From positions 1-64,000 of the forward strand of contig PHBE01000021.1 in NCBI GenBank assembly GCA_002841885.1: a stretch of DNA of 64,000 nt, written 5' to 3'. Source of the DNA: Deltaproteobacteria bacterium HGW-Deltaproteobacteria-18. Lineage in GTDB: Bacteria; Desulfobacterota; Desulfovibrionia; Desulfovibrionales; Desulfomicrobiaceae. The translations under genes and the position numbers were made by a program. Numbering within the stretch: position 1 is the stretch's first letter; the number at the start of each line of letters is the position of its first letter. Shown here one piece after another: positions 10,167-16,529 of the stretch. Below the pieces are notes generated by a model. That model was not told where the DNA came from. It did not search any database and saw only the letters and a list, made by a program, of their open reading frames with translations.

Positions 10167-11318
10167 TCAATCCGCCAGAACGAACTTGCCGTCCTTGACC
10201 TGAACCATGACCATGGAGTCCACGTCCAGACCGTTGTGGTCTTCGGGGGTCAGGTTATAGATGCCCGAGATGCCTACGTAATTCTGCGTGCTCTCAATGG
10301 CCGCGCGCAGGGCTTCGGGTTCGGTGCCGGCCTTCTCGATGGCCTTGGCGATGAGCATGATGGCGTCCCAAGCGTAGCCTGAGTGGGTATTGATGGGGAA
10401 CTGCTTGTCATAGCCCTTCTCGATGTAGAGCTTGACGAATTCCTGGATTACGGCCTTCTGCGGGTCCGTGTCAGGCAGTTCGTCCACGACCATAAGCTTG
10501 GTGGCGGGCATGCGATTGCCTTCGCTCGCCGGGCCGGCCAGCTCTATGTACTTGGGATCGGGCAGGCCGTGGCACTGGAAGAGGGGCAGGTCGATGCCGA
10601 GCTGGGCCACGTTCTTGGCGCTGATGACGCCGGCCGGACCGGTGGTCCAGACGATGAGGGCCTGGGGACCTGCGTTCTTGGCCTTGGTCAGCTGTGCGGT
10701 CATGTCCGTGTCGCGGGCGCCGAAGGACTCCTTGATCAGCATTTCAATGCCGAAAGTCGGAGCCAGCTCTTCCATCCAGCGCAGGCCGTCCTTGCCGAAG
10801 CCGTCATCGGCCGAAAGCAGGGCGACCTTGGTCAGGCCCTTGTCTTTCAAATAGGTGAAAAGGCGCTCGACCGCGATCTTGGAGCGCTGGGGCGATTTGA
10901 AGATCCAATCAAAGGGGCCGAACTTGCCGCCCATGATGACCGGGTCTCCGCCGACGGTCATGACGACGGGGATCTTGGCGGAGTGGACAATTTTCTTCAC
11001 GTTCATGCCCGTGTCGGTCAGAGTCGGGCCGACCAGGGCCACGACCTTGTCCTTGAAGATGAACTTGGTGGCGATGTTGGCGGATTTTGCCGGATCGCCT
11101 TCGGTATCGGCGATGATCAGCTCGATCTTCCTGCCGCCGATCCCGCCTTCGGCGTTGATCTTGTCGACGAGCATCTCGGCGACAAGCTTGCTGGGAGTGC
11201 CGATGAAAGACGCCCGGCCCGACAGGTCGAAAAACGCGCCCAGCTTGATGGTGTCCTCGGCCAGAACCGGGGAAGCCAGCAGCATGAGACAGCTTAGAAA
11301 ACCGAAAATCTTGCGCAT
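10167..11318 (-). CDS. livK: Branched-chain-type ABC transporter periplasmic binding protein
   Basis: A 383-residue solute-binding protein of the LivK/type I fold, with a clear signal peptide (cleavage near VLA at about residue 21). IKLGAFFDLSGRASFIG, then VDKINAEGGIGGRKIELIIA and NIATKFIFKDKVVALVGP are characteristic. A strong ribosome site (GAGGAGAAA) precedes the ATG. It is the last gene of the liv operon, 114 bases after the ligase. Family members bind branched-chain or aromatic amino acids, amides, urea or aromatic acids. The phenylacetate-CoA ligase fused to the ATPase next door makes an aromatic substrate worth considering, but this is inference. Confidence 0.9.
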   Translation of the reverse strand: MRKIFGFLSCLMLLASPVLAEDTIKLGAFFDLSGRASFIGTPSKLVAEMLVDKINAEGGIGGRKIELIIADTEGDPAKSANIATKFIFKDKVVALVGPTLTDTGMNVKKIVHSAKIPVVMTVGGDPVIMGGKFGPFDWIFKSPQRSKIAVERLFTYLKDKGLTKVALLSADDGFGKDGLRWMEELAPTFGIEMLIKESFGARDTDMTAQLTKAKNAGPQALIVWTTGPAGVISAKNVAQLGIDLPLFQCHGLPDPKYIELAGPASEGNRMPATKLMVVDELPDTDPQKAVIQEFVKLYIEKGYDKQFPINTHSGYAWDAIMLIAKAIEKAGTEPEALRAAIESTQNYVGISGIYNLTPEDHNGLDVDSMVMVQVKDGKFVLAD

Positions 11319-11432: not shown

Positions 11433-13517
11433 TCAAACGATCTCGTCCTGAATCCGGCTGTCGAAAACCCGCTGGCTCTTGCGTTCCGAACGGGGCAGAC
11501 TGCCGTAGTCGACCAGCTCGAGGTCCACCGTGACCATGAGCTGCTTCTTTATCTGATGTCCAGCCTCATGCGCCAGTTCGGGGCTTCGGCCCGAAGGCAC
11601 GCCTTCGGCGCGTTCGATGACGAGGCGCAGATTGTCACGCCCTCCGTCGTCCCGGGTCAGGTGGATCTGATATTCCGAGCCAAGGCCGGGCACCGCCGAA
11701 AGGATGGTGTCAATGGAACTGGGGTAGATGTTCACGCCTCTGAACTTGATGGTGTCGTCGGAGCGGCCCTTGATGCGCGAATGCCTGGGCATGATGCTGC
11801 CGCAGGTGCAGGCATCGGGGATGATGCGCGTGATGTCGCGGGTGCGGTAGCGGATCAGCGGCGAACCCTCCTTGCACAGGGTGGTGATGACCATCTCTCC
11901 CCATTCGCCGTCGGGCAGCGGCTTTAGCGTCTGGGGATCGAGGATCTCCATCAGGTAGTAGTCGCTCCAGTAATGGATGCAGTCGTGATCGGAGCATTCG
12001 ATGCCCGCGCCCGGGCCGTAGAGTTCGGTCAGGCCGGTGATGTCGAAAAGTTCGGCCCCGCCGAAGAGCTCGGAGATCTTCTTGCGCATGGATCGGCTGG
12101 AGCGTTCGGAGCCGTAGATGATCTTTCTGACCGCGATCTTGTCCGCGATGCCGCGCTTGTGGATTTCTTCGGCCATGAGCAGTGCCATGGAGGCCGTGGA
12201 GCAGAAGACCGTGGACTGGAAATCGAGCAGGAACTGGATGTGCATGTCGATGTTGCCGGGCCCCACCGGCACGGCCATGGCGCCGACCTTCTCGCAGCCG
12301 AGCTGAAAGCCCATGCCCGCCGTCCAGACTCCGTAGCCCACGGCGATCTGAACCCGGTCCAGGGAATTGACGCCCGCGCTCTGGTAGCAGCGGGCGAACA
12401 TGTCGGTCCAGTCGTCGAGATCCTTTTGCGTGTAGCAGAGCACCTTGCGCTTGCCCGTGGTGCCGGAGCTGGCATGCACGCGTACCAGCTGCTCGAAGGG
12501 CACGCTCCTCAAGGGGAAGGGATAGCCGTCGCGCAGATCATCGGTGGTAGTGAAGGGCAGGCGCTGCAGGTCGTCCAGGCTCTGGATCGAATCGGGCGTG
12601 ATCCCGGCCGCCTCCAGCTTGGCGCGGTAGGCAGGGGAGCCTTCGAAGGCATGGCGTACCGTCCATTTGAGTCCTTGCAGCTGATGGGTCTTGAGTTCTT
12701 CCGTAGAGTTAAAGGAGGGCATGAAGTTTTTGTGCATGGGAGGTTTCTCCAAACGGATATTGGTCAGCCCGGCCGCACCAAGGCGGCTGGCGGAAGGGTT
12801 GTCGTGACTGGCCGCGCCCAGAAAGGCGGCGCGCAGGGACGGGTCCAGGAGCAGGTCGCGGCTCTGGCCCTGCTCGACGATGCGGCCCCCGGCCAGAAGA
12901 TAGGCCGTGTCCGAGGCGGACAGCGCGCGGGCGGCGTTCTGTTCGACGATGAAGATGGTCGTGCCGGCCCGGGCGAGCTGGTGGATAATGGAAAAGATTT
13001 CGTCCGTGATGAGAGGAGCCAGGCCCAGGCTGGGTTCGTCCAGAAGCAGCAGGCGGGGCGCCGCCATCAGCGCCCGGCCCATGGCCAGCATTTGCTGTTC
13101 GCCGCCGGACAGGGTTCCGGCCAGTTGCTGCCGTCGTTCCTTGAGCTTTGGAAAGCGGGTGAAGATCTCTTCCATGCGCCGGGTTTCCTCGGCCTTGGCC
13201 AGGCTCAAGGGGATCGCGCCGAGCTGCAGGTTCTCCAGCACCGAGAGCTGGGCGAACACCTCTCGCCCTTCGGGGGACAGGGCCAGTCCGTGGCGGACCA
13301 TGCGCGCGGGGCTTGAGCCGGTAACGGTCTTGCCGTCGAGGAGGATCTCTCCGCCGGTAGGCTTGACCAGGCCCATCACGCATTTGAGCAGGGTGCTCTT
13401 GCCCGCGCCGTTGGCCCCCACCAGAGCCACGGTCTGCCCGGCCGCGACCTCCATGTCGATTCCGAACAGGGCCTGGGCAGCTCCGTAATGCGCCGTCAGA
13501 TTTTTTATGGTCAGCAT
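11433..13517 (-). CDS. Fusion of LivF ATPase and phenylacetate-CoA ligase (PaaK)
   Basis: One 694-residue frame holds two complete proteins. Residues 1-235 are a LivF ATPase with Walker A GANGAGKST (34-42), signature LSGGEQQ (136-142), Walker B LLLLDE (156-161) and IVEQN, ending at FLGA where ordinary LivF proteins end. After a linker of about 25 residues, residues 261-694 match phenylacetate-CoA ligase over its full length: ASSGTTGKRKVLCYT (AMP-binding loop), TGLTELYGPGAGIE, and KGRSDDTIKFRGVNIYPSSI. The ligase Met261 (ATG at 12735-12737) has GGAG upstream, so separate internal initiation is possible. The gene overlaps livG by one base (TGATG). PaaK makes phenylacetyl-CoA from phenylacetate, ATP and CoA, and related enzymes accept other arylacetates. 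A lost stop codon or a sequence error could also create the fusion. Confidence 0.88.
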   Translation of the reverse strand: MLTIKNLTAHYGAAQALFGIDMEVAAGQTVALVGANGAGKSTLLKCVMGLVKPTGGEILLDGKTVTGSSPARMVRHGLALSPEGREVFAQLSVLENLQLGAIPLSLAKAEETRRMEEIFTRFPKLKERRQQLAGTLSGGEQQMLAMGRALMAAPRLLLLDEPSLGLAPLITDEIFSIIHQLARAGTTIFIVEQNAARALSASDTAYLLAGGRIVEQGQSRDLLLDPSLRAAFLGAASHDNPSASRLGAAGLTNIRLEKPPMHKNFMPSFNSTEELKTHQLQGLKWTVRHAFEGSPAYRAKLEAAGITPDSIQSLDDLQRLPFTTTDDLRDGYPFPLRSVPFEQLVRVHASSGTTGKRKVLCYTQKDLDDWTDMFARCYQSAGVNSLDRVQIAVGYGVWTAGMGFQLGCEKVGAMAVPVGPGNIDMHIQFLLDFQSTVFCSTASMALLMAEEIHKRGIADKIAVRKIIYGSERSSRSMRKKISELFGGAELFDITGLTELYGPGAGIECSDHDCIHYWSDYYLMEILDPQTLKPLPDGEWGEMVITTLCKEGSPLIRYRTRDITRIIPDACTCGSIMPRHSRIKGRSDDTIKFRGVNIYPSSIDTILSAVPGLGSEYQIHLTRDDGGRDNLRLVIERAEGVPSGRSPELAHEAGHQIKKQLMVTVDLELVDYGSLPRSERKSQRVFDSRIQDEIV

Positions 13518-14281
13518 CAGGCCGTGGCCTCCATTCTTCCAAGATAGGCTTCGAGCACCAGCGGGTTGCGGCGGACTTCGTCAGCCGTGCCCGTGGCGAT
13601 GCAGCAGCCGCTGTCCAGCACCACCACCAGATCCGCGATGTTCATGACCAGGTCCATGTCGTGTTCGACCAGTAAAATGGTGTGTCCTGCGCGGCGCAGG
13701 TTCTTGAGCTGATCGCCCACGGCCGCCGTTTCTTCTGCGTTGAGGCCGGCCACGGGCTCGTCGAGAAGGAGCAGTTTGGGCTTGCCGACAATGGCCCGCG
13801 CCAGCTCGACCCGTTTCTTGTCACCGTAGGCCAGCACTCCGGCGGGCCAGTTGGCCTTGTCGGCCAGTCCGAACTGATCCATTGCCTCAAGCGCCCGCAG
13901 CCGCAGCTGCCGCTCGCGATGCCGCAGATAGGGCAGGCGCAGCATGGCCATGAACATGGACTCGCCACCTTCGCAGGTCAGGCCGGTCAGCACGTTGTCC
14001 AGCACCGAGAGACGCGGGAAAAGACGCAGGTTCTGAAAAGTGCGGTGGATGCCGAGACGCGTGATGCGGTGGGCCGGCAGCCCCGCGATTTCCTGGTCCA
14101 TGAAGCGTATGGACCCGCTTGAGGGGGAGAGCACGCCGGTCATGCAGTTGATGAGCGTGCTCTTGCCTGCGCCGTTGGGGCCGATGAGGGCTGTCAGCTG
14201 TCCGGCGGGCACGCTGATGCAAACGTTCTGCAGTGCGGGCAGGCCTCCGAAAAATTTGCTCAGACCGTCAAGCCGCAGCAT
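13517..14281 (-). CDS. livG: Branched-chain-type ABC transporter ATP-binding protein LivG
   Basis: A 254-residue ATPase with Walker A GPNGAGKST, Walker B LLLLDEPVAGLN and the LivG-type H-loop LLVEHDMDLVM. The signature region is atypical: LAYGDKKRVELARA stands where LSGGQ is usual, a form LivG proteins are known for. It energises the importer with LivF. The start overlaps the end of livM by 14 bases and its stop overlaps the livF-paaK start, so all are translated from one message. Confidence 0.93.
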   Translation of the reverse strand: MLRLDGLSKFFGGLPALQNVCISVPAGQLTALIGPNGAGKSTLINCMTGVLSPSSGSIRFMDQEIAGLPAHRITRLGIHRTFQNLRLFPRLSVLDNVLTGLTCEGGESMFMAMLRLPYLRHRERQLRLRALEAMDQFGLADKANWPAGVLAYGDKKRVELARAIVGKPKLLLLDEPVAGLNAEETAAVGDQLKNLRRAGHTILLVEHDMDLVMNIADLVVVLDSGCCIATGTADEVRRNPLVLEAYLGRMEATA

Positions 14282-15266
14282 GGTCGCGCCTCCACAGGGC
14301 GAGCCGCACCCGGATCATGTCGGTCAGGCCCGTGATCAGGCCCTGCGGCAGAAACATGAGAACAAGCACCAGAATGCCTCCGTGCACGAAATCCTTGTAG
14401 GTGTCGAAGACCTCCATCCATTCCGGGAGCAAGGTCAGAAATGCCGCGCCGAAAACCGAACCCCAGATGGAGCCCATCCCGCCGACCACGACCATGATGA
14501 CCATGTCCGTCGAGGTGAAGATGCCAAAGGTGTCCGGGCTCACGTAGGAATAGCAGTGGGCGAAAAGGCTCCCGGCCAGGGATGCGAGCACGGCCGAAAG
14601 CACGAAGACCTTGACCTTGGCGGCGCGGGTATCGACGCCCAGGCTCGCTGCCGCCGTCTCGTCTCCGGCCAGGGCGGCCAGGCCCCGGCCTACGCCGCTG
14701 CGCACCAGATTGAGGCACAGCAGCAGGCAGGCCATGGTGAATCCCCACAACAGATAGTGCAGGCTGACCGGATCATCGAAGACCACGTCAGCCACGGACA
14801 GGCTGGGGATTCCCGCGAATCCGCTGGGGCCGCCCGTGACCTCGTCCCACTGCAGCAGGATGGTGTGCACGACGTAGTTCAGTCCAAGCGTGGCCATGGC
14901 CAGATAGTGGCCCGAGAGGCGCAGGACCGGGATGCCCACGCCCAGGGCGACCAGGCCCACCAGCACCGCGACCAGAAACATGGATGGCCAGGGGGGCAGC
15001 CCGTAGGTGACGGTGGCAATGGCCGAACCATAGGCGCCAAGGCCGAAAAAAGCGGCATGACCGAGTGAGATCTGTCCGGCATAGCCGATGAACAGGTTCA
15101 GGCCCAGGACCACGATGGCGTTGATGGCGATGAGATTTGTCAGGCCCAGGGTGTAGGGGTTGTCCTCGATGTAGGGGAAGAGGATCAGGGCCGCGGCCAT
15201 GAGGGATACGAAGATTCCTGTCCGGTGCAGGGAGAGGAAGTAGAGTAGGTTTTGTCTGCCGGTCAT
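14268..15266 (-). CDS. livM: Branched-chain-type ABC transporter permease LivM
   Basis: A 332-residue permease from MTGRQNLLYF at 15266, which has AAGGAC just upstream; the frame stays open to 15524 but the extra 86 residues are not membrane-like and cover an imperfect palindrome. About eight to ten membrane helices are visible, with NLFIGYAGQISLGHAAFFGL, the hallmark LivM motif, and the cytoplasmic coupling segment RSGVGRGLAALAGDETAAASLGVD, typical of the family. It pairs with LivH in the membrane. A 390-bp gap separates it from livH, unlike the overlapping genes downstream. Confidence 0.92.
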   Translation of the reverse strand: MTGRQNLLYFLSLHRTGIFVSLMAAALILFPYIEDNPYTLGLTNLIAINAIVVLGLNLFIGYAGQISLGHAAFFGLGAYGSAIATVTYGLPPWPSMFLVAVLVGLVALGVGIPVLRLSGHYLAMATLGLNYVVHTILLQWDEVTGGPSGFAGIPSLSVADVVFDDPVSLHYLLWGFTMACLLLCLNLVRSGVGRGLAALAGDETAAASLGVDTRAAKVKVFVLSAVLASLAGSLFAHCYSYVSPDTFGIFTSTDMVIMVVVGGMGSIWGSVFGAAFLTLLPEWMEVFDTYKDFVHGGILVLVLMFLPQGLITGLTDMIRVRLALWRRDHAAA

Positions 15267-15656
15267 GAGCGTCCTTGAAGAATGGTGTCGTCTGGGCCGG
15301 GAAAGTATAATCGATTTGGCCGGGGGTAAAGTGCGTAAATTAGTGTTTTGCCGTGAAGAAGTCGAGAACGGCAAGAGAGGGTGGCCGTCGTAGGGGCATG
15401 CCCCCGTGCCTGCCCATTTTCGATCTATGGCGTCGGCCTGGCGGGATGGGATCGTCGCTGGCCGAAACTCCTTCGCGGGCCTCGTAAGGCTTGGCCGTCG
15501 CGTGCAGGACGCGCGCATTGCCAAACTCGCCGGGCAACGGTCAAGCCAACGATGCCTGGCTCAGTCAAACAGTCGGCCATCAAAAATCCCATCCCGCCAA
15601 GCCTTGGTTGTGCGCTGTATGTAAAAGGAAAGCTTAAAATCAATCAGGGAAAAGTC
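15267..15656 (-). other. 390-bp non-coding gap between livH and livM
   Basis: No convincing gene is seen. Short frames exist on both strands but lack ribosome sites and protein-like composition. The stretch contains a 169-bp imperfect palindrome, annotated separately, and the livM ribosome site at its end. Confidence 0.6.
15435..15603. repeat. 169-bp imperfect palindrome with 31-nt inverted ends
   Basis: The outer 18 bases of each end match with one mismatch (core GGCGGGATGGGAT at 15440-15452 against its complement at 15586-15598). After an equal 6-base mismatched stretch, TGGCCGA at 15459-15465 pairs with 15573-15579, giving about 26 matches in 31. Weaker pairing continues inward. It could be a miniature transposable element, an extragenic repeat or an RNA hairpin that lowers expression of the downstream liv genes. 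No flanking duplication was recognised. Confidence 0.6.
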
Positions 15657-16529
15657 TCACTTGCCCAACAACCCCTTGGGGCGGACGAAGAGGACCAGCA
15701 GCAGGACCACGAAGGCGACAACATCCTTGTAGGCACTGGAAAGATATCCTGCGGACAGTGATTCCAGAAGTCCAAGGCCCAGGCCGCCAAGGATGGCTCC
15801 GGGGAATGAGCCGAAGCCGCCGAGGATGGCGGCGGCGAATCCCTTGAGGCCCAGCAGCACTCCTACATCGTAGTTGAGCGTGGTGATGGGCGTGACCAGC
15901 ACTCCGGCCAAGCCGCCCAGGGCTCCGGCGATGGCGTAGCTGGTCAGGCGGATGCGGCCCGATGCAATGCCGACTACGGCCGCTGCCGTGGGATTGGAGG
16001 CCACGGCGCGCATGCACAGGCCCAGCGAGGTCCGGTGAAAAAACCAGGTCAGGACAGCGATGGCAATCATGGTCAGGCCCAGGATCCACAAGGCCTGGGG
16101 CAAGACGCTCGCGCCCAGGATCTGGACCGGAACATCAGGGGTCAGCGGGGGGACCGCCATGCGGTTCTTGCCCCACACGATCTTGATGATTCCGCGCAGA
16201 ATGATGGACAGGCCCACGGTCAAAAAGATGAGCACCAGATGGTTGTCCGATCTTGCCGGGCGCAAGCCTACCCGCTCGACAATCATGGCCACCAGGGCCA
16301 CGAGGCAGACAGCCAGCACAAGCGCCGGGATGGTCGGCAGTCCCAGGGCGAAGAGCGCCGAGAACATGAACATTCCGCCCAGGGTAACGAAATCGACCTG
16401 GATGAAGTTGACGATGCCCATGGTGTTGCTGACCACGCAGAAGCCAAGGGCGATGAGCGCATAGATGGCACCGCCTGTCAGGCCGCTGAAAATAAACTGC
16501 AGGAGATCTGTGTACAAAATTGTTCCCAA
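15657..16529 (-). CDS. livH: Branched-chain-type ABC transporter permease LivH
   Basis: A 290-residue permease with about eight membrane helices. FIFSGLTGGAIYALIALGFC at the N-terminus and the cytoplasmic loop FHRTSLGLCMRAVASNPTAA are typical of LivH. It is the first gene of the minus-strand importer operon. The upstream 630 bp, shared with the divergent kinase gene at 17164, would hold its promoter. Confidence 0.92.
   Translation of the reverse strand: MGTILYTDLLQFIFSGLTGGAIYALIALGFCVVSNTMGIVNFIQVDFVTLGGMFMFSALFALGLPTIPALVLAVCLVALVAMIVERVGLRPARSDNHLVLIFLTVGLSIILRGIIKIVWGKNRMAVPPLTPDVPVQILGASVLPQALWILGLTMIAIAVLTWFFHRTSLGLCMRAVASNPTAAAVVGIASGRIRLTSYAIAGALGGLAGVLVTPITTLNYDVGVLLGLKGFAAAILGGFGSFPGAILGGLGLGLLESLSAGYLSSAYKDVVAFVVLLLVLFVRPKGLLGK

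Follow-up and report, generated by a model that had tools for sequence, protein, structure and literature searches.

Vectorial acylation, as typified by FadD/FATP-type uptake and by peroxisomal ABC transporters with their acyl-CoA synthetases, turns an acid into its CoA thioester on import and thereby traps it. ABC importers are usually seen as passing their substrate to free enzymes. Fusions of operon mates are common, and LivF-type and PaaK-type domains are both well known. The iorAB-linked ligases provide a close metabolic setting: the IOR-linked AMP-forming ligase of Bacteroides has been assayed as an arylacetate-CoA ligase, with a suggested biosynthetic role (PMC13285125), and a Geobacter iorAB-paaK operon is listed under tryptophan control (PMC2700814). 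According to work cited in PMC4162585, M. maripaludis uses aryl acids in making its aromatic amino acids.

The window analysed here, a stretch of 64,000 nucleotides from Deltaproteobacteria bacterium HGW-Deltaproteobacteria-18 (contig PHBE01000021.1), carries a liv operon in which livF is joined in frame to the gene for a PaaK-family ligase (Table 1). Capture of an incoming acid as a CoA thioester is the idea that this locus, as we interpret it, has in common with the vectorial acylation systems; unlike livF::ligase, however, the latter pairs involve no LIV ATPase joined covalently to an aryl-CoA ligase. In the iorAB-paaK operons of Geobacter and Bacteroides an orthologous or related ligase adjoins iorAB, as it does in fused relatives of the present gene, but there the ligase is separate and joined to no LIV transporter, and the window operon is without iorAB. 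No description of a LIV ATPase fused to an aryl-CoA ligase was found in a literature search limited to open-access papers, and the best sequence matches to the fused protein among solved structures span one half, none of them both. As far as the searchable literature and solved structures go, the combination appears to be new.

Table 1. Features of the livF::ligase operon (positions in the window)
Feature	Position	Strand	Remarks
livK, periplasmic binding protein	10167..11318	minus	nearest solved relatives bind aromatic acids
livF::ligase, fused gene, 694 aa	11433..13517	minus	one open frame
PaaK-family AMP-forming ligase domain, residues 261-694	11433..12737	minus	Pfam, structure match, motifs
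ATG261, putative internal start	12735..12737	minus	equivalent Met is the start in solo relatives
Linker, residues 236-260	12738..12812	minus	absent from unfused LivF paralogs and outgroups; low model confidence
Conserved linker core, residues 240-259, NPSASRLGAAGLTNIRLEKP here	12741..12800	minus	identity 0.948; pN/pS 0.061 (residues 240-251)
GGAG, putative internal ribosome-binding site	12747..12750	minus	9 nt upstream of ATG261
LivF-type ATPase domain, residues 1-235	12813..13517	minus	Walker A, Q-loop, signature and Walker B intact; 1ji0 Z 28.1
livG, ATPase partner	13517..14281	minus	stop overlaps livF start (TGATG)
livM, permease, TTG-start ORF	14268..15524	minus	homologous part 14270-15232
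livH, permease	15657..16529	minus	domain match

The fused gene

The frame descends from an ATG at 13517 to 11433 through 694 codons with zero internal stops, which bears out the single open frame described in an earlier note made from the sequence alone. Both halves are complete, as that note had held: domain searches place PF00005 in the LivF half and PF00501 and PF14535 in the ligase half, and each half retains its catalytic motifs throughout 31 fused genes. The LivF portion ends near residue 235, the point at which its unfused paralogs in this genome stop too (...YLGG), and the ligase begins in frame at Met261, preceded by GGAG, after a linker of about 25 residues; these boundaries, too, agree with the original description. 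Its livHMGF-K context was recovered from gene order (livH-livM-livG-livF::ligase-livK) and domain matches.

A sequencing or assembly error that removed a stop could join two neighbouring genes in this way, and the junction does possess a ribosome-site-like GGAG and an ATG. No stop lies between residues 235 and 261, and the fusion is not peculiar to this assembly. Chance or assembly error is excluded because the same open fusion is found in 16 of the 19 genomes of the window's own and sister genera and in at least 16 elsewhere in the phylum; since independent assemblies, some of them single-contig genomes, supply no fewer than 31 intact fused genes, we give an artefact practically no credence. 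No plasmid record spans 80% of livF::ligase.

The ABC ATPase motifs of the LivF half are invariant or nearly so among the 31 fused genes. It shares Walker A, signature, Walker B and VEQN with LivF of the HAAT/LIV importer, as well as an operon with livH, livM, livG and livK, and is 48% identical to 1ji0; it differs from ordinary LivF in the C-terminal addition of a linker and a ligase. Against the NCBIfam LivF equivalog it scores 238.4 bits and does not reach the cut-off of 441 bits; judged by sequence, it is a LivF-like importer ATPase other than the E. coli-type equivalog.

The ligase half has the PaaK fold with AMP-binding and AMP-binding_C_2 domains, and its motifs SSGTTGK, GLTELYGPG, YRTRD and GRSDD, together with the C-terminal lysine K680, are conserved in the 31 genes. 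The closest structures are BT_0428 and PaaK1/PaaK2 (Z 45.6 for 4r1l and 44.4 for 2y4o), with which it shares the whole fold and the catalytic motifs, but to which it is only about 40% identical, and it forms part of a larger chain. The name phenylacetate-CoA ligase, given in the earlier note, proved too exact: the score against the NCBIfam PaaK equivalog is 403.5 bits, below the curated cut-off of 646.3, so that the substrate is one that we infer.

Operon partners

By sequence and by model, LivK is nearest to binding proteins solved with p-coumarate, phenylpyruvate (4dqd) and hydroxybenzoate, a likeness which, at an identity of approximately 22-27%, does not fix the ligand. The operon of Geothermobacter (L154), like that of other fused relatives, includes iorAB, the best family for which is indolepyruvate:ferredoxin oxidoreductase (alpha and beta), at scores slightly under the curated cut-offs; some unfused relatives also adjoin iorAB. 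These genes are absent from the window operon, and the window genome has no iorAB ortholog (best iorA matches 36% and 30%). Where relatives carry iorAB, the window has some 430 bases (15232-15657) that separate livH from the homologous part of livM, and no iorAB remnant was recognised in them; candidate matches were rejected as being at chance level (E 2.8 and 8.6).

Operons of the same gene order also exist in unfused form. Two further liv operons of the window genome itself (L004, G000:C2:248467-250591, and G000:C4:177622-179630) have a separate, distant PaaK-like ligase gene (37% and 32%) beside livF, so that LIV transporter and ligase are paired more than once.

The linker

The linker core (residues 240-259) is conserved as NPAASRLGAAGLTNIRLEKP. 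Across the 31 intact fused genes its mean modal identity is 0.948, versus 0.805 for LivF and 0.852 for the ligase, which puts it level with the Walker B/signature region and slightly under the best ligase stretches. Almost all of its codons occur in several synonymous forms among these genes, and within Desulfomicrobium and the sister genus residues 240-251 have a pN/pS of 0.061, compared with 0.269 for LivF and 0.154 for the ligase, the lowest among the segments compared. Low pN/pS with normal synonymous change means that selection acts on the peptide, as can be understood only if the joined protein is made; selection on the linker as part of that protein is thus well supported by the codon patterns.

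None of the unfused LivF paralogs encoded in the same genome has the linker, nor does the LivF of the outgroup operons examined or any other LivF protein examined, and the view of the linker as an ordinary LivF tail was rejected on that account. Junction searches of 348 and 395 genomes revealed no unfused LivF with the linker among the matches listed, although a short match to the tail alone could have scored under the thresholds. Both domains are recognisable in the predicted structure, in which residues 231-260 have pLDDT < 50, so neither a linker fold nor a contact between the domains can be claimed. A peptide that is conserved yet probably unstructured suggests a docking motif.

A putative internal start at Met261

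Synonymous variation within Desulfomicrobium and the sister genus drops over codons 252-258, which contain GGAGAAA: pS is 0.251 there versus about 0.53, and these codons rank second lowest among 677 codon windows. This drop over GGAG and up to ATG261 points to a putative ribosome-binding site for Met261, the start used by the solo relatives, and suggests that an extra, free ligase is made from it in these two genera; codon bias could be a contributor to the drop. The proposal in the earlier note that fusion and internal start might coexist gains support, in this branch, from linker selection together with the synonymous drop at GGAG.

In the remaining fused genes the same signal is weak (rank 97 of 640), and GGAG is altered in several members (codon 257 being GTG, GAA or GAC). 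Two have TTG at position 261, where translation could still begin, and in L169 the junction lacks ATG, GTG and TTG alike, yet the frame stays open there. The fusion is accordingly general, while the internal start belongs at most to one branch.

Distribution and origin

Within the window's genus (Desulfomicrobium-like) the whole fusion occurs in 13 of 16 genomes, its own included, at 83-98% identity, and in all three sister-genus genomes at 78%. Two of the other members (G006 and G011) have the ligase alone, behind an iron-sulfur protein gene and without an adjacent livF, which indicates that the ligase can work untethered; the last (G007), a genome 63% complete, has a fragment of the fusion (residues 463-694). 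Among the matches listed for the 348 genomes scanned in the order, only these two genera have the joined form. Geothermobacter hydrogeniphilus HR-1 shares this linker, as do several deltaproteobacterial assemblies, and 395 genomes drawn evenly from the phylum contained at least 16 further fused genomes, in families f12, f47, f65, f88 and f93. Including the window's own family (f1), the fusion is present in at least six families and at least 13 genera of Desulfobacterota.

Quick trees were built of LivF and ligase, without bootstrap and with long branches flagged. The fused LivF halves form one clade (SH-aLRT 99) whose neighbours are livF of unfused liv-ligase operons, which supports a single origin of the fused LivF. 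The ligase halves likewise form one clade (100), in which three solo ligases are included. Two of these are nested inside Desulfomicrobium and are best read as having lost the LivF half. The third (L183, 6345-11180; 71% identity) follows a uvrA-like gene, has an aminotransferase-like gene in its vicinity, and may have branched before the fusion or have lost its LivF half. With a support of 91, Geothermobacter and L156 join the window's genus in a group that leaves out the sister genus, although the two genera belong to one family; this is a hint of inter-family transfer.

Function of the fused protein

We judge it rather probable that livF::ligase encodes a bifunctional subunit of a LIV importer, whose LivF ATPase and linker-held aryl-CoA ligase couple the uptake of an arylacetate-like acid with its CoA activation. 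The LivF half would pair with LivG beneath LivH and LivM, and the conserved linker would keep the ligase half at the cytoplasmic face. LivK would bind an aromatic carboxylic acid (arylacetate-like) for import by LivHMFG, and the tethered ligase would make the CoA thioester at the exit, blocking back-leak of the acid. In relatives, the co-operonic IorAB would turn arylacetyl-CoA into arylpyruvate for aromatic amino acid salvage, or operate in the reverse direction; in Desulfomicrobium and the sister genus the Met261 start probably adds free ligase. The purpose is probably salvage into aromatic amino acids, or catabolism. Such coupling is plausible in that it fits the recurrent liv-ligase operons, the iorAB of relatives and the aromatic-acid-like LivK, and the near-unchanged linker suggests that uptake and activation are physically tied. 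More tentatively, NPAASRLGAAGLTNIRLEKP may dock the ligase on the transporter or sense substrate or CoA, the transport cycle being gated by, or handed to, CoA activation. The solo ligases of two Desulfomicrobium-clade genomes, the lack of an iorAB ortholog in the window genome, the ligase score under the PaaK equivalog cut-off and the loose LivK resemblance count against the coupled reading.

The fusion might instead do no more than fix stoichiometry and co-expression, the partners being translated together without physical cooperation and the linker serving as a passive tether. Operon mates fuse readily, same-order unfused operons exist and two relatives have the ligase alone, all of which speak for this; a mere tether should vary, however, whereas the present one exceeds both flanking domains in identity and has the lowest pN/pS, and we regard this explanation as unlikely. 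Strong invariance in a short, probably unstructured peptide would also be expected if the linker were a protease or docking site at which the chain is processed, so that separate LivF and ligase do the work or both forms coexist, and the internal start of Desulfomicrobium and the sister genus would give free ligase as well. Yet no known cleavage motif was recognised in the linker, and a stop codon, as in the outgroup operons, is a simpler route to separate proteins, which makes processing distinctly improbable.

The pathway could also run in the energy-yielding direction, with IorAB oxidising arylpyruvates to arylacetyl-CoA, the ligase freeing arylacetate and the transporter importing amino acids or arylpyruvates. 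The position of iorAB within the operon of relatives and the resemblance of LivK to the phenylpyruvate binder (4dqd) would agree with this. AMP-forming ligases, however, typically favour acyl-CoA synthesis (PMC13285125), and the fusion has been kept in the window genome despite the absent iorAB ortholog; we doubt that this direction applies.

Under the coupled reading, the transporter's own ATPase carries the would-be trapping enzyme, in at least 13 genera and through a strongly selected linker. If the linker is a working part, this would be vectorial acylation within one ABC subunit. With a single gene, metabolic coupling at an ABC importer becomes open to direct test, and the fusion offers a lead on aromatic acid uptake by sulfate- and metal-reducing bacteria. 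The Desulfomicrobium gene, moreover, seems to hold two signals, a fused frame and an internal translation start.

Variation among related loci

Three loci of family f12 (L158, L160 and L163) have unrelated genes inserted on one side of the fused gene or the other, separating it from livG or from livK, with fusion and linker kept. Frames of about 700 codons in family f33 were considered as independent fusions and rejected, being solo ligases beside iorAB with accidental upstream open frames; L170 was likewise rejected, since a stop intervenes and the upstream ATPase reads as LivG. In two unfused operons (L180, 3857-7260, and L189, 5057-8414) livF is separated from the orthologous ligase by a second PaaK-like gene, a distant one (31-34%). 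In L026 (1492-4248) a solo ligase ortholog lies behind a TRAP transporter large permease-like gene, again placing a transporter beside the ligase.
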